DNA from: Viridothelium virens
Taxonomy: Eukaryota; Ascomycota; Dothideomycetes; Trypetheliales; Trypetheliaceae
DNA: 64,000 bases
Reading direction: 5' to 3'
NCBI GenBank assembly: GCA_010094025.1
Contig: ML991805.1
Coordinates: 124,001-188,000, forward strand
The notes under the pieces were generated by a model, which was given only the letters and a program-made list of their open reading frames with translations, was not told the origin of the DNA and made no database searches. Shown here one piece after another: positions 17,047-64,000 of the stretch (the stretch's first letter is position 1; each line of letters opens with the position of its first letter). The translations under genes and the position numbers were made by a program.

Positions 17047-18644
17047 ATGTGGATAGAAATCCTCTGTTTCGTTCTGACTCTCGCCGTGATCTATGTCTGC
17101 TCAAAGTTGGGTCACTCGAGAACATTAGCTGCCATCCCTGGACCTCCGGGGAATCCACTGACTTCTTTCTTAATTGACTATCTAGATCTACAAGGATGCA
17201 AGACCAGACATGTCGCCTCTCTACATAAGAAATATGGACCGGTGGTCTGTATCGCATCAAAAGAGGTATCTCTTTCGAGCCACTCAGCAGTCCCCAAGAT
17301 CTACACTATACAGTCAGAAAAGACGTCGTTCTATGACATGTTTATTGTATTTAATGAGCGGACTCATTTCACAATGATAAATACACAGGAACACAAGAAC
17401 AGGAGAAGGCCTTTTGCTTCCCTGTATGCTGCGCTTACAGTCTCCAGTGGAGAAACAGAAATTCTCATGGATACAATGACCATGAAATTCATTGATGCTT
17501 TAGCAAAGCAAATCCCGTTGGAAAAAAAGTTATATGAACTCATATCTCCTTCTATATTAGACTTCATGACAGCCTTCATCTATGGCAATCTTGGTGCTAC
17601 GGCGGCGCTAGAAAGCTCACAAGACAACCAGATCAACGATGATCTCAAAGCTCCCGGCAGACGTCTGCTTTTCTTCGCCTTCAATCAATTTCCAGTCCTG
17701 GCAGAATGGGCCACCATTGCAATCAACAAGCTCGGACTGTCCAACCACTTTCCGACTCGCACATATCCCCAGCTATTCTCCCATGGCTGGCACACCTGGC
17801 AATCCTTCGACCAAAAAATCTCTCGCTCAGAAAAACTCGACGCCACCACCTCCGCCTCGGTGATCGCTCAGGCCCACGACTCAGGCATCACCGGCACGGC
17901 CCTCGCCGCCGAATGCGCCGACCAGCTCCTCGCGGCCCTCATCGCCCTCAACCACGTCCTCATCTCCGCCCTGTGGGTCCTTTCCCAGCCCTCCCAGCAC
18001 AGCATCCAATCGCGCCTGCACGACGAACTCCGCGCCCTCCCGCCCTCCGCGCTCGACTCCGCAGGGAACCCGTCAATCCAGACATGCAGCAAACTTCCCT
18101 ACCTCAACGCCGTGATGAAGGAGACCCTGCGCCTGTACCCGCCCTTCTCCGGAGCGCAGCCGCGGAGGTTTCGGTCGGATGTCGTGATCGATGGGTACGT
18201 GATTCCGGCGGGGACGAGCGTGAGCATGTGTATGTATGCTATGCATCGGAACCCGGAGGTGTTTCCGGAGCCGGAACGGTTTTGGCCGGAGAGGTGGTTA
18301 GATGTGTCGGAGGGGCGGATGAGAGAGATGGAGAGGTATTTCTGGCCGTTTTCGGCGGGGGACCGGAGGTGTACTGGAGAGCAGTGAGTGATCCTTGAAG
18401 AGCGTTGCTGGAGTTGCTATGCAGGATTTACTAAGTGCCCTCTAGCTTGTCTAAGGTGGTAATTTCGAAGATACTGGCGGCAGTCTTTCGGAGGTTCGAG
18501 ACCGAATCGGCGGAAGATAAACGTACTGTAATGACATGGACGAGTCGATCGGATAGGTTTACAGAAGCGAGCCCGGAAGGCATACGGAATCCGTGTCCAA
18601 AGGCTATTCACGACCTTCGTATTCGTATTTCCGCAGCGGAATAA
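17047..18644 (+). CDS. Cytochrome P450 with atypical I-helix
   Basis: Exons 17047-18383 and 18446-18644 join across a 62 bp GTGAGT...TCTAG intron (phase 2) to give 511 residues. The N-terminal anchor is 1-24, followed by a proline hinge IPGPPGNP. The K-helix ExxR is ETLR (359-362), PERF-like FWPERW lies at 412-417, and the heme motif is FSAGDRRCTGE with Cys442. These identify a microsomal fungal P450 needing a reductase partner. The I-helix reads QLLAALIALNHVLISALW (293-310), where a canonical P450 has A-G-x-D/E-T; both the acidic residue and the oxygen-activating threonine are absent. Such loss is known in P450s that rearrange peroxides or use other substrates. Substrate unknown. It is convergent with the permease. 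Confidence 0.9.
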
Positions 18645-25146: not shown

Positions 25147-26047
25147 GGTGGGATGGGTGTTGCGGCGCTATCGAGGATCTTAGTTTTAGTTAAGAAGACA
25201 GCCTTACTTCCAAACTCTTATTATCTAGGGTTTTGCTTTATCGGTGCTATAGTCTTGATAGCTCGGGCCCTGTCTCGATTGTTTGACGATAGCATCTAAT
25301 TTCAATCATGGGTCTACGAAAAAATTTCAGCAGGTGATTTCCTTGACTTGTATTGCGAATCGAAGATCATATGAGACAAACTTGCAAGTGTGGATGGATC
25401 TCCCTCTTGATAGATTCTTGCAGTCACTTTCGCTCCCAACCTGCATTGTCTTCATTTACAAGATCATGACGGCTCTTTTGGTTGAAGGATACTTTATATA
25501 AGCTCAGCGCGGATATGGATGGCGGCGAAAGTGGCAGAGGACAAATTCAGCACTTATCAGCATTCATTGAAGCTGTAGACCAAAGCTTTCCTTGTAATGC
25601 TCTACCATGGCTAAAGTTGTACAGAGTTGTTATGCAAGAATACTGGTGTGAATATTCACCAAAGGGGGATTGGATGCGTTAGAACAGACGAGCTATTCGC
25701 AGAATTAACGACTGACTTTGCCCTTTAAGCGTAGAAAGGATTCCAGGGCTTGAATCCTTCTGCCTAGGTTTACGTATCGCAAGGTAGACCGATAGCAAAA
25801 GCAGAAAGAGTTGTGTTTGCTGGAGAATTGCCGGGAAAATAGCGGATTACACTCTATCTGTGTCACGTCAACCAAAGTCCAGGCTTCATCCTTGCTGCTG
25901 AGCTAGTAGGCACTTTCGCATAGCGTGTCAAACAGCCCATAACCTTCCAGCTTTCGCTAATCAGGCTTTACGATCGACACTGTGAGTACAGATGCTAGGA
26001 GGCAACTGCTTCGCTGTGTGTCTATTTCTGACTGGCATCAAGCAGCA
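25147..26047. other. Intergenic region
   Basis: Nothing supported. Short frames at 25283-25501 and 25482-25682 have no motif. Confidence 0.4.
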
Positions 26048-26572
26048 ATGAACTCCACTGATAGGCAATTACATTTTTCAGAAACTTTCGTAATCAGTTG
26101 CGGTACAGTCACGATCGATATACATACAGCCAAGGTTCTGCTTATCCAATGGCGCAGAACTGGGGAGTACTTCCTTCCAAAAGGTCGAAAGGATATCGGC
26201 GAATCTTTGGAGGAAACAGCCATGCGAGAGACGTACGAGGAGACTGGAATTCCTGTACAGCTTCTCCCTATCAAAATGCAAACCCTTGCTACCGTCTCGA
26301 CCAGAATTGGAGTATCCCAAGAAGTCGAACGTATCAGTGAACCAATTGCTGTCGCTCAGCGTGTATCTGAAGGCAAGCTGAAGATCATTTTCTGGTACGT
26401 TGCACAAGGAGATTCGAACAGAGCTCGAGTAGAAGGTACTCAGCAGGAGAATGAAGAATTTGATACAATCTGGGTTGCTGTTGATAAGGTTGCCTCTACC
26501 CTTTCATTTGAAGACGATCGGCGGATTGCGACCAGAGCTTTGAACTTGATACACAGCAAACTGGAACCATGA
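26048..26572 (+). CDS. Nudix hydrolase
   Basis: A single exon of 174 residues from the ATG at 26048. The frame is open 22 codons upstream, but without an ATG. The Nudix box is complete at 46-68: GRKDIGESLEETAMRETYEE then TGI, fitting G-x5-E-x7-R-E-x-x-E-E-x-G. The preceding YFLPKGR is typical of diphosphoinositol/diadenosine polyphosphate hydrolases of the Aps1/DIPP kind. The enzyme should cleave a nucleoside-diphosphate-linked substrate with Mg2+. The exact substrate cannot be told from sequence. Confidence 0.9.
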   Translation: MNSTDRQLHFSETFVISCGTVTIDIHTAKVLLIQWRRTGEYFLPKGRKDIGESLEETAMRETYEETGIPVQLLPIKMQTLATVSTRIGVSQEVERISEPIAVAQRVSEGKLKIIFWYVAQGDSNRARVEGTQQENEEFDTIWVAVDKVASTLSFEDDRRIATRALNLIHSKLEP

Positions 26573-27313: not shown

Positions 27314-29634
27314 ATGATACCATTAGCTCAACTTCGGGACGAGTATCTCACACACGGCGAGGATCCACTTGCACTCGGGTTCATTTCCATATTCCTCGGT
27401 GGCAGCGTGATCCATCAACAGGATATAAAACATATAATGCGTCGAGGTAGCGATTGGGACGGTGTGGGGATTGTTCGAACCAAGCAGGATATCGTCGCCC
27501 TCATTCGTGATAGACGAGCTAGTCTTCGGGCCTTGCTAGGAATCATTAGAGAGGACAGCACAACGACATCTTGGGAGGTAAGCCAATGACATTGATTGGC
27601 TTACCAGCTTTGACTATTCCATAGGATGCACTAGTCGAGGAAGCTGATTGGCAGGTGCTACGTTTCTCAGGCTGGACGTGTACGGGCTCTAAACGCACAA
27701 TGAGAATCTGGTCGCAAGAGCATCTCGAGGCGGTTGCAAGTTGTAACGAGACTTGTTATTTGGGCGTCCTTTCTCATAAAGTTTGGCACAATATCCGGCT
27801 CCAGCACGAAAGTTTCGGTCCTGGCATTCTTGTGTCTCCTCCAACTGCAGTCACTGACCGTGTATCTATAATGACCGACTTCAACATTCTTCAGATTCCA
27901 TATGGAATAAAACAGGGCACTGTAACTGGGGTATGGCCAGGAGTTGTGTGCGATATTATTCTGACTTCGTGGTGTATGTTTGAGCACTTTCCTGGCCTCG
28001 TCGACTTTCAGAAACGACTTCTCTGGTCCAAATGGCTTCTTGTAAGCAACCTGAAGAGACCTGAGGTCTTAGCTCCATTCTTGTGTCACTGGTATACATT
28101 CAGTCAGGGCTATAAGGATAACCTGGTCATGGACGCTTACAGACTTCTCGAGGGGAATGAGCTAAAAGCATGGTCAACGATGGATTCCAGTTCCAATTCC
28201 TCAAGCAACATGCACGAACCTCTTGTCACCAGCCCTATTACGATTGTAGATGAGTATTCTGGAACACAGAGGGGCATAGGCCCGAAATTTGTTTCCTACC
28301 ATCGACTGGAGATATCGCCAGCAATGAATCCAGGCCGCCTAGTCACCTGGAAAGAAACCGGTGTTACGCATGGGTCTGAATCAAAATGGCAGTCTGGACA
28401 AGACTTTGTTATTCATAGATCTGTCCCTGTCCGGAGTGCCTTTTCCAGTAATTCAGATGGCGAAGAGGCAATGATTGAGCATCGCCAGATAGGCGTCCGC
28501 CACCGTGTCTATATCAAGACTGCAGACACTTTTCTGGATGAGCTTGATGCTATGAAACAACTCGAGTGTTTTGTTCCTAAGCGCAATCTTCAAAATATCA
28601 TTGCCGTCGACAGGGGGAGCAAGCGAATTCTATACGAATACTTTGACGGCAAATCACTGCTGGATATCAGGACACAGCGTCGTCCCGAGAACTGCGGCAA
28701 CCGCGGCATCTCAGAGATGACCTATCGCTGGCTCTTGAGCATTGAATCTCAAAGGGCTCACGACATGATGCTTGCCTACCGCCTCTCATACTTGCCTAAC
28801 AATATCTACAAGCGTCTCGACCATGAGCCCAAGCTACACCGGTACTTCTTTCATCGTCTGCACAACGACACAAGATTGAAGGAGTTTTATCAGAACGGAA
28901 CACCTACATTTCTTGATCCTCAAGGAAGAGCGACCGGCTCACTCAAAGAGCTCCTGGCCCTTCCTGTTTACGTCAACAACAAGACGTCAAAATGCCTACG
29001 GGAACATTTGGACACAGCAGAAAGTCTTCTCCATCCACAGGCCGAGCACTTTTCTCGTTTGCCATTTGCGTACGGTCTCGGGGACGGCCACGGTGGTAAT
29101 GTTATGGTGGCCGACGAAGAGACTACGATGCCCGTGTTGAGATTTGTCGATTACGAAGTTGCAGGGTACAATCCGATCTTGCTCGAGTTAGCCAAGCCGA
29201 TATATCATGATTGCTTTTACAACGCGCTATGGGGCGACCTTCTGGCGGATGACCTTCGGCACCCTACAAAGGCGCATATTCCAAAGGTTCGTTGGCACGT
29301 TGGGCAAGGTGGCGTGTACATCGAATACGACCTGCACATGAGCTTTCTCGACAAAGCTTTGGCGACGACAAAATTCGAATATCTTGTTTGCCCGATTCTG
29401 CAACATATTCATCAGCAATATGGTCCCGAAAGTTTGCTCCAAGAATCTGAGACCGCTCTTGGACATGCATTGCTCTGTTGTGCTATGCTATCAAGGGACT
29501 TCTCTCACCGTGCAGACCTCTTTTTTCTCAATCTTGCCATTGGGGTAGACTTGGTGACCGATATGAGAGGAACTATTGATAAGATTTTTGGCTTGCAGAA
29601 CTGGCCAGCGAAGGGGTCGCTCAACCGTGTGTAG
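27314..29634 (+). CDS. Nucleotidyltransferase-like / APH-like kinase fusion protein
   Basis: Exons 27314-27577 and 27625-29634 join across a 47 bp GTAAGC...CATAG intron in phase 0 to give 757 residues. The N-terminus has FISIFLGGSV (23-32) and, 15 residues on, SDWDG (46-50): the GGS...DxD arrangement of polymerase-beta-fold nucleotidyltransferases, although a third carboxylate is not obvious. Residues 90-370 have no clear domain. The C-terminal half looks like an aminoglycoside/choline-kinase-type phosphotransferase: VYIKTA (lysine 386), LYEYFDGKSL, a catalytic loop GLGDGHGGNVMV (572-583) where APH has HGDxHxGN, and FVDYEVAG (595-602) as the metal-binding IDWE motif. I know no established fungal enzyme with this pair, so the substrate is unknown. 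The kinase half is the surer part. Confidence 0.7.
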
Positions 29635-30852
29635 GGAGTGCATTGCTGCGAAAGGGTGGGGTGGATCAGGTACGGAATTGTCAAGTCTGCATACGACCTC
29701 AACTTGAAACTTCCATTTCTAATTGGCTAGGGTCAAGACTGAACTGAAAGCAGGATCACCTTGATTGAAGTATCGAGGTTCAGGAAATTCTTGTCCGGTA
29801 GTTCCGGCAAAGAACGGAATGACTTCTGAATATTACCTGCCGCTTTCCGCCTTGTGATCCTCATCAGTGCTAATCTATTCTCCCTCCCTCCCGTTTCGCC
29901 ATTGGCTATGACGTCTATTGCGACACTCGCATCGTTCTGGATACTCTAGAAGATCGGTACGGTGAAAGTCCTTGGAGGTTAAGAGGTCCTGTAGAGCATG
30001 GTGTGAATGCTTTTAAAGAGCCATCCGATGCATTGCGGAACCCCTGATCTAACCAGAACGGGCGATTGTCTAACAGCGGCTTGTTTCCCCAATCACAACT
30101 AATTATTAGCTATCTTAGATTGACTGCCGATTGAGTAGATCGATCTTGCTGATTGGACTCTAAGCCTATACGTAATTCTGCCGGCCGAAATCTTGATCCA
30201 AGGCGACGTGTGCTGCTGTAATAAGCCGATCAGAGGTGTGGGACATTAGCGCAACCTGAAGGCCTTCCACCCACTTTGCTACAAATGGGCAATGATAATT
30301 GGCGCAAAATTAAAACACACTCGCCGGTGAAGTCCGACCTCTTCTTGTGTCTCATTTCAGACTATCGTTTATTTCGAAAAGTATCTGACATTGAATCACT
30401 CATCGCTTCATGATTTAGTTTATTGTGGTCTATCTCTAGTTTTCATCATCGTCCATGAAGGCTAATTTCACCCTGCCCTTTGCGCCATGTTCATTAGGGC
30501 AATCAGATGCCCGTCGACCATAGGATTGCCGCAGAATGCCGAATATAGAAAGAAGAGTCACCGGTAGAACGTGCGAAATTTTCTTTGTAACTCAGGTCCT
30601 TATTTTAGAAATCACAGCTGGATCGCATCGGTTGCCCAAAAGGATAGAGGATCTTCGTCTTGTATCTTTCACACCGGGGCTATATATATCTGTTCACCTG
30701 TTAACGACTGATACTCCTGCGTCGACCGGACAGATTTAGATCTGTCCAACGATTGAGTAGTTCATTTGTCTGATATCCAGTCAGGATCGCCGGCGAAGTC
30801 GTGGTGATTTACACACCCAAGGTCTCTTGCCAATTTGTCAAGCTTCGCAGTC
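29635..30852. other. Intergenic region
   Basis: About 1.2 kb with stops in all frames at normal density. No gene, repeat or RNA supported. The right end presumably promotes the methyltransferase gene. Confidence 0.4.
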
Positions 30853-31695
30853 ATGGCCTCCTCAAGCGACGTAACCGCAAACCTCACGAATTCGTTCAAC
30901 AACGCAGCGGATACGTATGAGCGACGCATGGGCACAGCAACTCGCGCTGTTGCTCGCCATATCATATCATCGTTGCCTTCGTTACCTCCAAACCCTACGA
31001 TCTGTGATAATGCCTGCGGCACCGGCGCCATTACAAAGGCATTTCTGGATCGTTATCCGCACGGACATGTGTATGCAACTGACAACTCGCCAGGTATGGT
31101 GGAACTCATGCGTCAGAATATCGATCAAAGTGGCTGGAGTGGCAAAGTGAAGGTCGAAGTGATGGACAGTGTCAGACTTCATTTGCCTGACAACTCGGTC
31201 GACGCCAATACCATGAACTTTGGGATATTCTTCACGTCGGATGCACAGCGAGCTGCGGACGAGATCTATCGCACAGTTAGGAAGGGAGGAGTCGCGGTGG
31301 TGACTTGCTGGAAAGATTATGAACTGTTCTCAATCATGCTTGACGTTCAGGATATCATAAAGCCTGCCAAGATGCTGGAAGCCATGCCTTCTCTGGAGAA
31401 ATGGAGGGATCCTAGCACGCTTGAGACAAAGCTGCGTTCTGCTGGTTTTATGAATGTGGTAATGGAGGCACTTCCGGTCATTCTTAGCGGAAATTCAACG
31501 TCAGAACTGGTTGAATCGGTTGCAGAAAACCTCAGAGGAGTGATTGGGGACCAATGGACCGCGGAGGAGAAAGGAAAGCTTTACATCGCGACCGAGCAGG
31601 TACTGACCAATCGAAAGAAAAGGTATCTCGCCGTCGACACTGATGATCAAAAGGGCATTTCTTGGACTGCATGGATTGCAACGGCTGAGAAATGA
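30853..31695 (+). CDS. Class I SAM-dependent methyltransferase
   Basis: A single exon of 280 residues from the ATG at 30853. Motif I is ICDNACGTGAITKAF (50-64), the ribose-binding acidic strand is VYATDNSPGMVELM, and LPDNSVDANTMNFGIFF occupies the motif IV position. The layout matches the small methyltransferases (Methyltransf_25/UbiE-like) that fungi use in secondary metabolism and small-molecule modification. It lacks targeting or membrane segments. The neighbouring P450 and Zn2Cys6 gene, 5-10 kb away, would fit a metabolic role, but the Kre6 gene lies between, so a cluster is only a possibility. Confidence 0.8.
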   Translation: MASSSDVTANLTNSFNNAADTYERRMGTATRAVARHIISSLPSLPPNPTICDNACGTGAITKAFLDRYPHGHVYATDNSPGMVELMRQNIDQSGWSGKVKVEVMDSVRLHLPDNSVDANTMNFGIFFTSDAQRAADEIYRTVRKGGVAVVTCWKDYELFSIMLDVQDIIKPAKMLEAMPSLEKWRDPSTLETKLRSAGFMNVVMEALPVILSGNSTSELVESVAENLRGVIGDQWTAEEKGKLYIATEQVLTNRKKRYLAVDTDDQKGISWTAWIATAEK

Positions 31696-36840: not shown

Positions 36841-38489
36841 ATGGCGACTAAATTTGCTTCTGCCGGATATGCATCCATCATGTCGTATACTGCCATTTTC
36901 AGCTTTGCGCTTCTTGTCTACTTCATTCTCGTACCAATTATAGTGTATTTCCGAGACGTTAAAGGTCTGTTCTCTTTAGTCCTCTTCATGAAGATGCAAA
37001 TTCTCACGCATGATCTATAGGACTTCGAAAATTTCCCAACTTTGCACCATTTTCGGGCATATCCAACCTCCCCTTCATGGTGTTGGCTCACGGTGGATCC
37101 CGCTCTTCCTACCTGGCCACGCTTCATCAAGAGCATCCCATTCTGCGCACCGGTCCAAATACGTTGTCTTTTGGGAGCGTGCGAGCTATCAAGGATATAT
37201 ACGGACACAATACACCATGCAGCAAAGATGGATCTTACATCTTGATGAGTGGCTCACATTTTCACTTGGCCGATGTTATTGATAGAGGCGAGCATGCGCG
37301 AAAACGCAAAGTTCTATCCATGGCATACGCAATCAAACACCTTGTCGCCTGGGAGCACAAGGTGGCTGACAAGGTCGAAAGATTGATAAAGCATTTCGAT
37401 AAGTGCTGCACTGCACCCCCTCTGGATGCTAGCGAGATGACCAGTCCCCATCCAAAAGACCTGCATGTAGATTTCCGCGCCTGGACGAATTTCTTTTCGT
37501 TGGATGCAATCATGGATATCGGCCTCTCCGAACGCTTAGGCTTTCTTGATCAAGGCAATGATCTAGTTGAGGGGCAAAATCCAGATGGATCACTAGCTCA
37601 GCTAGAATTACGTGAATGCCTTTATCCCACAGCACGAAAGCAGAGTCTTCTTATCTGGAGCTACAAGTGGTACAGAGTACTCAATAAAATAACAAATGTC
37701 ATTCCCTTCTACCGCCGCATGTCAGAATCAAGCAAAGGCTGGGATGCTATTGTTTGCAGACGAGCAACAAAAAGACTCGAACGATATCAAGCCGGCGAAA
37801 AGCTGGATGATTTCTTCCAGGCTCTCATGGAGGACAAGGATGGTGCGCCGCACAACCTACCATGGGGGGAGACAGTGGCAGAGATTAACATCATGATGAA
37901 TGCTGGATCCGTTACGACGGCGATTGCCATTGCCAATGTTATGTACCAGCTACTGAAGAACAGGGAGATCATGAAAAAGCTAAGAGAGGAAATTGATGGC
38001 GCAATGGATCCTGAAGACGTCGTGGCAAGTTATGATAAAGTTAGACATTTACCATATCTCAAAGCTTGCCTCGACGAATCACTGAGGCTTTGGCCACCAA
38101 CACCACACGGCCTACCACGAGAGACGCCTTCAGAAGGGATTTGGATTATGGATACCTTTGTTCCTGGAAATACAACCGTCAGTATTTCGTCTCTCGTTGC
38201 TCATAGAGATCCAACGGCATTCTCAGATGCGGAAAAGTTTATTCCCGAACGGTGGCTGGGGGAAGAAGGGAAGAAGCTGCAAGGTAGTTTCATAGCATTC
38301 TCCGCCGGAGCAAGGGGCTGCATCGGGAGAAACATCAGCTATCTGGAGCAAACTGTAATTTTAGCTAGCTTGTTACATAGGTATGATTTTGCGCTGCCTA
38401 GGGGGTTCGAGTTGCGACGACTGGAGACCATGAATCATATTTTGGGGGAAATGCCAGTCAAAGTCTGGAGAAGAATGGCAAAGGCCTAG
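36841..38489 (+). CDS. Cytochrome P450 monooxygenase
   Basis: Exons 36841-36964 and 37021-38489 join across a 56 bp intron (donor GTCTGT, acceptor CTATAG, phase 1) to give 530 residues. The membrane anchor is at about 14-37. The I-helix AGSVTT (336-341) has the alcohol but no acidic residue, the K-helix ExxR is ESLR (394-397), FIPERW follows, and the heme loop FSAGARGCIG places the ligand Cys at 475. These indicate a catalytically competent microsomal P450. It lies 740 bp before a Zn2Cys6 regulator transcribed in the same direction, a common arrangement in fungal metabolic loci. The substrate is unknown. Confidence 0.92.
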
Positions 38490-60525: not shown

Positions 60526-63500
60526 TTATGTTGCTCTATTTGAGTCCATGGAAGATCTGCGACCCTCGCCTTCCACTCGATGAGCCTCTGATGACTGTGG
60601 TGTTGGCAGACCATTCTCCTGAGGCGAAATCCATGCATCAGGTGCATATTTAGGCCCTTCCGGTCTACCTGCCCCGAGGTTGGGATTGCTGGAAAATTGC
60701 CCTGGCTGACCCGAGCCTGAAAGTGCATTGAGATCCTTTGAGTTGTAAGTGGCGGTAGAGGAGATAGCTTCTTGATGTCTTGGAGGGAAGACATATATGT
60801 ATGGTGTTCCATTAGGCATGAGTCGTATTTCGTATCCATTCTGCAAAGCAGCTCTTTTGATAATGAGAGGCTGAGGAGAATTAGGATGGTGGATGAGCCT
60901 TCCAGCAGACTCTAGAGATTTCATGATCATCTCAGAGACCTCCTTCTGCTCGTACTGTATAGCAGCTGAGACCGCGCTGAAGCCTCGTTTCGAGAATATT
61001 GTGGGGTCTGAGCCGTGTTCTAAGAGCAGTAGAGTCACTCCTACGGATCCGGTTGCTGCAGCATGAATGAGAGCATTATTCCCGAAGCGATCTTGAGTAT
61101 CAATCAATGCACCACGTTCCACAAATTTCTGTGCAATGATTGGCTGGTCGTGTATTGCGGCAAGCATAAGTGGCGTCTGATGTTCCATGTCCTGAGCGTT
61201 GACATCAAGTTTATTCTGAAGCAAGAATTCAACTGCGTTGTCGTCCCCTGTGAGTACTGCTCCATGGAGAAGTGTCTGTTTCTTTACGCCCCACCACTCC
61301 AAAGATGCGCCCTTGTCAACAAGAAGCTGTGCTATTGCAAACTTTTTCTGGACAAATACCCTGAATACGAGCGGGACCTGAGGATCGATCTTGACTTTCG
61401 CATCCGCACCAGCTGCAATTAAACGCTCGACAATATCGCCGTTCGGTCGGTGGCAGGCCAGAACCAAGGGAGTCTGACCATCGCTATCCTTCCTGTACCT
61501 CCAGATTTGGCTTAGATTCCAATAGTACGTCGAGAACTCGGGGAAAATTTCTCCAAATGGCCATTGTGAACAGCACTGGCATGAATCTTGCCGCCAACTT
61601 TGCGTTCAAAATTAATATCAGCACCCCTTTCCAGTAGCAATCGTACTGTAGCTGGCTTATTGTGGAGCACAGCGCAGATAAGTGGTGTGGTAGGTCGTTT
61701 GCTTGATCCGTCAAATATGTCGATCTCGGCGCCATTATCAAGTAAAATATCCACAATGTTATTGTATCCGCTGCCTGCAGCTAATTGCAAAGAGCAGTAC
61801 CCGGCCTCATTCCTTGCAGCAGGATTTGCTTCATATTCGAGTAGCAGCTTCACACTCTCAGCTTGTCCCTTGTCAGCCGCCAACGTCAACGCGGTTGACT
61901 TGTGCTTGTTCCTGATATCGACCTCAGCGCCAGCTTCCAAAAGTATTCTCAGTCCAGCACGAAATGAGTGTCGAGCAGCAAGGTGCAAAGGCGCGTCTAA
62001 GGTCGTAAGATGTTGCGCGTTTATAGCGGTGTTCGTCCTAGCGAGAAGCTCTGTCGCGGTAGTGCGATTGTTCATGACGGCAAGTGAAAGCGGAACGTGA
62101 CCATTAATTGTATGTTCGAGATTGCAGCCAAATCGTATCAGGATGTCGATGATATCTTTGTTCCCATTGGTAGCTGCACGATGAATGGCAAGAGTGGTCA
62201 TATTTTGTCTACGGAGATGCGGAACTTTAGAAAGCCATCTTCTTAACATCCTCTTATCCTGGGCGATCGCAGCGTTGCAAATATTTTTCTCTAAGACCGC
62301 GGAATCTGGGGCATTGATTCTTAAGAACTCAATGTTTTGCTCGCCTGTGTAGGAATATTTTAGCAGAAATCCTTTTGAGATTTGCACCTTTGCGCACCTT
62401 CGCGGTCTGGATCATCCTCATCGCCAGACTCCTGTAGTTCAGCTGGTACTTCCTGTCCCTGTTTGCTATTGCAACAAATTCCGTAATAGCCTGCGTTTTC
62501 CTCGCAATCGAGGATTCTGTCCATGATCTGCGCAGCAGTGAGACGAGCCTCCGGATTTTTCGAAGTCATATTCTTAATCCAATCGAGAGGAGCCTCGTGG
62601 TCCCTAGACTCGAGTCTCTTCATCCAACTCTTCATAGCCTTCAGATTGCCAAAGTGGAAATCACTGCAGTCTCCATTGTTTCTGAAATGATCCAACTTCG
62701 CTCAAAGTGTCTCGCCATTCAATACAGTCTAACCGTATTAGCATTACTGCGGAGCCTTCCTTGTTCAGTACTTACGATCATGTCCAAAAAGACGCACCCA
62801 AGCGACCAAATATCCGCAGATCGATTCCTTTTATCACTTTCCATCACTTCTGGAGCTGCGTAGCCTGCAGAAACAGGCCCATGATATCCAGTGGTGGTGC
62901 TTCGGCCTACCATCTTCCAATGACAGCAAGCCCAAAGTCTGTGAGAAAGACCTTCCTTTCTCTCACGATGATGTTCTCGGGCTTGATGTCTTTGTGACGC
63001 TTTTTCTCGCTATGCATATACATGATCGCGGAGCAGAGGCATCCAAACGCTTCTCGAATGCAGGCGTAGTCGTAAGATAGAAGGGACTTCTGGCTTAAGA
63101 AGACTTTGAAATCCATGTCTCCTACTGGTGCCATAAGAATACCAACATATTCTGGATCAGTATACGAGCCTATGTAGCGTATCAAGTGACGGTGTTTTAG
63201 CTGCTTCATAATTCCGACTTTCTGTTTAAAGAAGTTGAGGGCCGCAACGCTTGCTTCGAAGGTCTCTCTGCGTTTGAGACGTTTTCTAACGTAGACCCGG
63301 CCAGAAAGCTTGCTAACAACTCGATGGACCTCGCCGGTGCCGCCTTTGCCATGCCGCTCGTGGCATTCCAGATGGCGACGATCGACACTTTCAAGAAAGT
63401 TAGCATGTTTAGCTGTGGCGCCTCCCTCGATGCTCTGGGCTTCTTTGTTCATCACGGAGGACTGGCTCTTCAGGAATAGGGCCTTCTGCTTCGAAGAGAG

Positions 63501-64000
63501 ACTTTGCGGAATATTACCGGACGAATATGGAAGGGCGATGTCTAAGCAATTCTTCTGCACAAACTCATCCATGAGATCTACTGCATTGATCATCCTCAGG
63601 ATGGCGAAAGTGCGAGGCCGTATGCTCCATTCTTCTTTGCCTGCTTTGGCAAGGATAGTAGCGAGGCGCTCAAAGTCGTTATCTGACAGCGTCAACACTT
63701 GATCGGTGCTGCCTAATGGAATGATCTCCCGCAATTGAGACTCAATCTCCTGCAGACGATGTCTACTGGAATTAGGTGACTTTGCTGCCAATGGTCCTTC
63801 CTTTGATCCTTCGGTGACTGCTGTTTCTTTGCCGGTCTGATAACTCGGATTGTCGAATCTGCCACTCCCAGTAAGATTCTCTTCTGGTCTGATCTTGGCA
63901 TGTGCGATGTTTGGTGGCACGCTCTTGGCATTCAAAATTTTTGTAGGTAGCGAATTACCACTGCCACTCGTAGTGGAACTTCCGCTATGATCCGCGGTTC
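60526..64000 (-). pseudogene. Ankyrin-repeat protein kinase, 5' end beyond the window, frame broken
   Basis: The frame is open to the right edge, so the start lies outside. Reading leftward, a polar N-terminus leads to a kinase domain: glycine loop GKGGTGEV, VYVRKRLK lysine, RHKDIKPEN (HKD instead of HRD, usual in this fungal family) and TDFGLA. The activation loop GRSTTTG and APE follow in another frame (break near 62,908-62,922). Introns at 62775-62696 and 62397-62345 then connect to ankyrin repeats such as GAEVDIRNKHKSTALTLAAD. Within the repeats the frame changes again near 61,540-61,555 and 61,485-61,500. The C-terminus ends with a P/S-rich tail. These proteins are thought to act in fungal self/non-self or stress signalling. 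Three small shifts suggest a decaying gene, though sequencing errors in homopolymers could cause some. Confidence 0.7.

Follow-up and report, generated by a model that had tools for sequence, protein, structure and literature searches.

Bifunctional aminoglycoside-modifying enzymes such as AAC(6')-APH(2'') and ANT(3'')-AAC(6') carry two modifying domains per chain, and we know of no ANT-APH pair. A putative kinase and a nucleotidyltransferase have been considered together in TakA and TglT of M. tuberculosis, which we take to be the same as MenA3 and MenT3. RelA/SpoT-type synthetases, which belong to the same broad set of nucleotidyltransferase-fold proteins, are active enzymes. According to two reports, one of three acids is absent in these synthetases (PMC11646218), while TglT has the acids D80, D82, and E146, with an E146Q change that attenuates but does not abolish its toxicity (PMC7205606). 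Here, we describe a protein of Viridothelium virens (Dothideomycetes, order Trypetheliales, by taxonomy look-up) that very probably joins, as a two-domain protein of Pezizomycotina, a polymerase-beta-like nucleotidyltransferase half to an APH-type kinase half. Its gene lies on a 64,000-nucleotide window of contig ML991805.1 (positions 124,001-188,000, forward strand; GCA_010094025.1), to which all coordinates refer. No description of a fungal nucleotidyltransferase-kinase fusion was found in searches of an open-access literature library.

The spliced product of 27314..29634 (+) was found to be 757 residues long and identical across its full length to a public V. virens record (EV356DRAFT_567851, here P0001). 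This translation confirmed the length and all motif positions given in an earlier note on this DNA, which had proposed that nucleotidyltransferase-like and APH-like modules are joined in one chain. In the N-terminal half, GGS at 29-31 and D47-x-D49 were found exactly as claimed. LGGS (28-31) conforms to the hG[GS] motif, and DWDG (47-50) to the [DE]h[DE]h carboxylate pair, of polymerase-beta-like nucleotidyltransferases; both were retained in 9/9 members having the region, down to 31% identity in P0005, with P0007 lacking this region. When the fusion protein was subjected to 20,000 residue shuffles, the loose pattern hG[GS]...[DE]h[DE] appeared in 1,693 (8.5%) and thus carries little meaning alone, while 30 (0.15%) contained the strict pattern hGGS...DhD, and 2 (0.01%) matched the kinase pattern. 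It is the conservation across all nine members that places the N-terminal motif above chance. In the C-terminal half, the beta-3 lysine and alpha-C glutamate of APH-like kinases were represented by K386 and E394 in a predicted N-lobe, and the catalytic Asp, Asn, and metal Asp were likewise present, with D575 and D597 gone in P0005. The earlier note had called this APH catalytic set full; K386, GDGHGGN (574-580), and VDYE (596-599) are indeed in place, but the first His of the HxD loop is not, its position being taken by Leu573 in the hhalign columns. The Pfam APH score (14.8 bits) also fell below the gathering cut-off of 23.2, so that the kinase half may work in an APH-like manner though outside Pfam APH membership. 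Two runs against 15 APH frames from the V. virens genome aligned the catalytic loop and DxExAGxxP with probabilities of 90 and 78. In the same test, the APH alignment spanned 62 columns at 77.9 versus 19 columns at probability 13.9 for PI3K/PIKK, and membership of the kinase half in the latter family was rejected on this basis. Placement outside the kinase superfamily, named beforehand as a refuting outcome, did not occur; the results support a C-terminal half within this superfamily that is closer to APH than to PI3K, with a C-lobe assigned putatively from sequence. As a separate observation, GLGDGHGGN at 29074-29100 resembles the PIKK loop GLGDRH more than the HGD of APH; the profile test still favours APH.

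The predicted models of both halves were of low to moderate confidence, and the region borders rest on low-confidence models. The N-terminal model had helices (H) and strands (b) in the order H4-11, b23-30, H38-44, b48-54, H57-65, H68-75, H85-90, b100-105, and b111-118, which would suit a polymerase-beta-type palm, and its best structure matches were nearly all nucleotidyltransferase-fold proteins, with no Foldseek match at E 0.001. Thus, at the confidence of this model, the N-terminus without a polymerase-beta fold that would have removed the fusion claim was not encountered. Comparison of the same model with a viral structure library gave nothing at E 0.001, the named rows including several nucleotidyltransferases and also unrelated proteins. 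Since no Pfam nucleotidyltransferase family was matched in any of 7 members, the N-terminal half points to an undescribed domain family in Pezizomycotina. The roughly 280 residues that separate the two motif sets had been regarded as unexplained, which holds only in part. Residues 128-262 are probably a helical companion subdomain of the nucleotidyltransferase half (predicted local distance difference test score, pLDDT, of 28-61 by 10-residue blocks, and 34-61 for the blocks of four helices at 193-261). These would be followed by a linker from about 263 to about 339, within a stretch where 2 of 105 columns (261-365) are invariant and identity is 13-62% in the full-length alignment, and by a kinase N-lobe that in the model starts at about residue 340.

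Relatives were sought among 5.8 billion proteins, with scoring confined to the 7995 candidates that had the most words in common with the query, which means that some relatives may have escaped detection. The sequence search returned 7 rows including the V. virens protein, the profile search returned the same 7, and an N-terminal profile search (E up to 10, 4683 candidates) returned five (P0006, P0007, and P0008-P0010), to give a family of 10 proteins with that of V. virens counted. Four relatives are full length: P0002 (Trypethelium), P0003 (Xylaria palmicola), P0004 (Diplogelasinospora), and P0005 (Penicillium arizonense). All four have both halves in the same order, so the fusion claim stands after a survey of homologues, and none of the outcomes named as refuting it was seen. 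In P0006 (Trichoderma, 429 residues) the N-terminal half is present with a tail that gives no convincing kinase alignment, while P0007 (Xylaria cf. heliscus, 468 residues) is without the GGS/DWDG region and ends ahead of the catalytic loop. The listed product of P0002 (Trypethelium subeluteriae) is without about 20 residues around 100-119, perhaps through an annotation error. In the exon-1 fragments P0008-P0010, the match ends at the codon where the V. virens intron starts; the position of this intron therefore appears to be conserved. Within the V. virens genome, the two exons of the gene itself were the sole matches to the fusion protein at E 0.001. By the taxonomy of four species, the fusion is carried by Dothideomycetes, Sordariomycetes, and Eurotiomycetes. 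Unrooted trees of the two halves (6 and 5 sequences; support 0.74 to 1.0) agree for the five shared sequences and set Sordariomycetes apart from the remainder, and the identity of the four relatives to the V. virens protein is similar for the two halves (78/80, 51/48, 47/44, and 37/34%). Recent horizontal transfer was rejected on the basis of these small trees; for this small sample, the simplest account would be that the fusion arose once, long ago, and was lost many times. Beyond the family, (i) Pfam, NCBIfam, and PADLOC on 7 members gave only weak APH/EcKL matches (Pfam) and three NCBIfam rows at chance level; (ii) no relative was found in the PDB by single-sequence or profile search; (iii) prokaryote genomes gave 63 pattern matches with the whole protein (both patterns N-terminal) and 28 with the kinase half, none of them a relative; and (iv) viral contigs gave 10 pattern matches with the kinase half, again with no relative.

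The account that best explains these data, to which as a whole (domains, old fusion, and mechanism) we assign slightly less than an even chance, is as follows. The N-terminal half would be a DNA-polymerase-beta-like palm with its own helical subdomain, connected by the divergent linker to the C-terminal APH-type kinase. The fusion would predate the split of the three carrier classes and have been lost since in most lineages, judging from its patchy distribution and from a small tree that fits such a history. Both halves would bind nucleoside triphosphate and Mg2+, the kinase would phosphorylate a hydroxyl of a small molecule, and the nucleotidyltransferase would add a nucleoside monophosphate either to that molecule or to what is made from it, such that the protein may be an accessory enzyme of modification or detoxification. 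A role outside core metabolism is suggested by the small number of relatives, the single copy of the gene, and its scattered distribution. That both halves are catalysts acting on small molecules is the function that we favour, although it is less likely than not. Two observations weigh against it. First, when the TglT spacing (PMC7205606) was transferred, the third carboxylate was expected at residue 113, inside the predicted strand 111-118, yet 5/6 aligned members having this stretch show no Asp or Glu in columns 111-117 (the listed product of P0002 is without it); columns 113-115 are T/A, M/L, and K/R. The later-strand h[DE]h is thus absent, in a register that rests on a moderate model, and for this reason the N-terminal half was not filed as a canonical catalytic nucleotidyltransferase. 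The earlier note had held its N-terminal call to be the weaker one because this acid was not visible, and that caution proved well placed. Second, P0005 has T at 386, no D575 column, N at 597, and S at 599 while keeping GGS, DWDG, E394, and N580. This protein is apparently a natural pseudokinase version, and the survival of its nucleotidyltransferase motifs beside a degraded kinase site argues against a strictly required kinase step. The invariant acids of the six aligned N-terminal halves are D47, D49, D81, D166, D198, and E208; the site may use two carboxylates, perhaps with D81, D166, D198, or E208, or may bind nucleotide only.

An alternative that we consider unlikely is that the nucleotidyltransferase is the effector, with a kinase half that controls it by phosphorylation or senses a metabolite. 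For TglT, a shut-off through phosphorylation of its active-site S78 by TakA has been reported (PMC7205606), and the nucleotidyltransferase motifs do outlast the kinase, both in P0005 and in the listed product of P0006, where no kinase can be aligned. However, this precedent is disputed by a second report, which describes MenA1 and MenA3 as free of kinase motifs and proposes that the antitoxin induces the toxin to phosphorylate itself (PMC11375011). Moreover, S78 of TglT sits two residues ahead of the first Asp, and the equivalent position 45 is G, G, D, K, G, and D in the six aligned members, so there is no conserved phosphoacceptor; a harmful effector stripped of its off-switch in Penicillium would also be hard to keep. 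Similarly improbable is that one metabolite is processed by the two halves in turn, with the kinase making a phosphomonoester that the nucleotidyltransferase caps to a nucleoside-diphosphate-activated compound. Against this stand the degraded kinase site of P0005 beside its retained nucleotidyltransferase motifs, and the fact that Tam41 was one weak row among many structure matches. We give an equally small chance to a nucleotidyltransferase fold that has lost catalysis and serves in binding or as a scaffold, with the kinase as sole enzyme. The missing acid where TglT E146 predicts one favours a dead fold, but GGS and both DWDG acids were kept more strongly than the kinase residues, and activity may survive without the third acid, because RelA/SpoT types without one acid are active and TglT E146Q is only attenuated. 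Finally, fungal gene models often merge neighbours, the sole point for an artefact of two merged genes, a highly improbable explanation that was rejected because residues 89-757 form one uninterrupted open frame across the junction and 4 other full-length proteins from three classes have the same order.

Returning to the favoured account of an old fusion with two nucleotide-using halves, a rare fusion of two folds that use nucleoside triphosphates offers a direct way to ask what gets modified, as each half could be produced and inactivated on its own. The natural series, in which kinase residues are intact in 4/5 full-length members and degraded in Penicillium while the nucleotidyltransferase motifs persist, provides a built-in test of which half does the main job. 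At its most specific, the protein would be a fungal enzyme of a kind not described before: within one chain, its APH-type kinase would phosphorylate a small molecule, and its nucleotidyltransferase, working with two carboxylates, would then act on the product to yield a new class of nucleotide-modified metabolites. This we regard as a long shot.

The positions of the gene, its motifs, and its neighbours are collected in Table 1. Farther out, an amino acid permease, SKN1/KRE6, a transcription factor, a sulfate permease, and an alpha/beta hydrolase were found. The longest single open reading frame in the window was at most 709 residues, and no unspliced polyketide or peptide synthase was visible, though introns could hide one. 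At 60526-63998 (-), a protein kinase frame is followed by two ankyrin-repeat frames, possibly a single kinase-ankyrin gene that runs past the window end.

Table 1. Coordinates in the window of the fusion gene, its coding features, and neighbouring genes.
Feature	Position	Strand	Remark
Exon 1	27314..27577	+	Residues 1-88, nucleotidyltransferase-like core with hGGS and DWDG; spliced translation, identical to P0001
GGS, residues 29-31 (motif hG[GS])	27398..27406	+	Kept in 9/9 members having region
D47-W-D49-G, two presumed metal-site carboxylates	27452..27463	+	Kept in 9/9 members having region
Intron	27578..27624	+	47 nucleotides, GTAAGC...ATAG, after codon 88; spliced translation
Exon 2	27625..29634	+	Residues 89-757 (27625-29631) and stop (29632-29634); spliced translation
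Predicted strand 111-118 (KRTMRIWS), expected place of third carboxylate	27691..27714	+	Model and alignment
Residues 128-262	27742..28146	+	Low-confidence strands, then predicted helices 193-204, 213-229, 234-240, 249-261; model
Divergent linker, residues 263-339	28147..28377	+	Poor conservation in alignment
APH-like kinase half, residues 340-757	28378..29631	+	N-lobe by model, catalytic loop by sequence
K386, presumed adenosine triphosphate lysine, predicted strand 380-388	28516..28518	+	K in 4/5 full-length members, T in P0005
E394, presumed alpha-C glutamate, predicted helix 391-404	28540..28542	+	E in 5/5 full-length members
Catalytic loop GLGDGHGGN (572-580), presumed base D575, presumed metal ligand N580	29074..29100	+	D575 in 4/5, N580 in 5/5 full-length members
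VDYEVAG (596-602), presumed metal Asp D597 and APH-type DxExAG	29146..29166	+	D597 in 4/5 full-length members
Nudix hydrolase gene	25982-26572	+	Directly upstream, same strand; Pfam NUDIX 1.8e-12
Methyltransferase	30835-31695	+	Downstream, same strand as fusion gene
Two cytochrome P450 frames	17047-18387 and 37077-38489	+	One on either side of fusion gene

When compared with known systems, the protein differs from the bifunctional aminoglycoside-modifying enzymes, which are bacterial; it is fungal, and aminoglycosides are not implicated by any of the evidence here. With PI3K/PIKK (PF00454) it shares the GLGD-x-H-xx-N loop, matched by GLGDRHPSN in a PF00454 frame (L037) that is presumably TOR-like, yet its alignment to that family is weaker and shorter than to APH. 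The likeness to the APH family (PF01636, including fungal APH-like kinases) extends to the catalytic loop, DxExAGxxP, and, in the model, the beta-3 Lys and alpha-C Glu; the differences are the score below the Pfam cut-off, LGD in place of HGD before the base, and the fusion to a nucleotidyltransferase-like half. TakA-TglT (MenAT3) is similar in that a proposed kinase and a nucleotidyltransferase act as a unit (PMC7205606), but it consists of two bacterial proteins, the kinase status of its antitoxin is disputed (PMC11375011), and its phosphoserine position is not conserved in the fungal family. Compared with polymerase-beta-like nucleotidyltransferases, the fusion protein has no third carboxylate on the expected strand and no Pfam nucleotidyltransferase match. 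It shares with these proteins (ANT(4'), ANT(6), LinB, RelA/SpoT, and polymerase lambda) the predicted strand-helix order, hGGS and DhD motifs, and structural matches, and the G62-D80 motif spacing of 18 in TglT (PMC7205606) compares with 17-18 in the fusion family.
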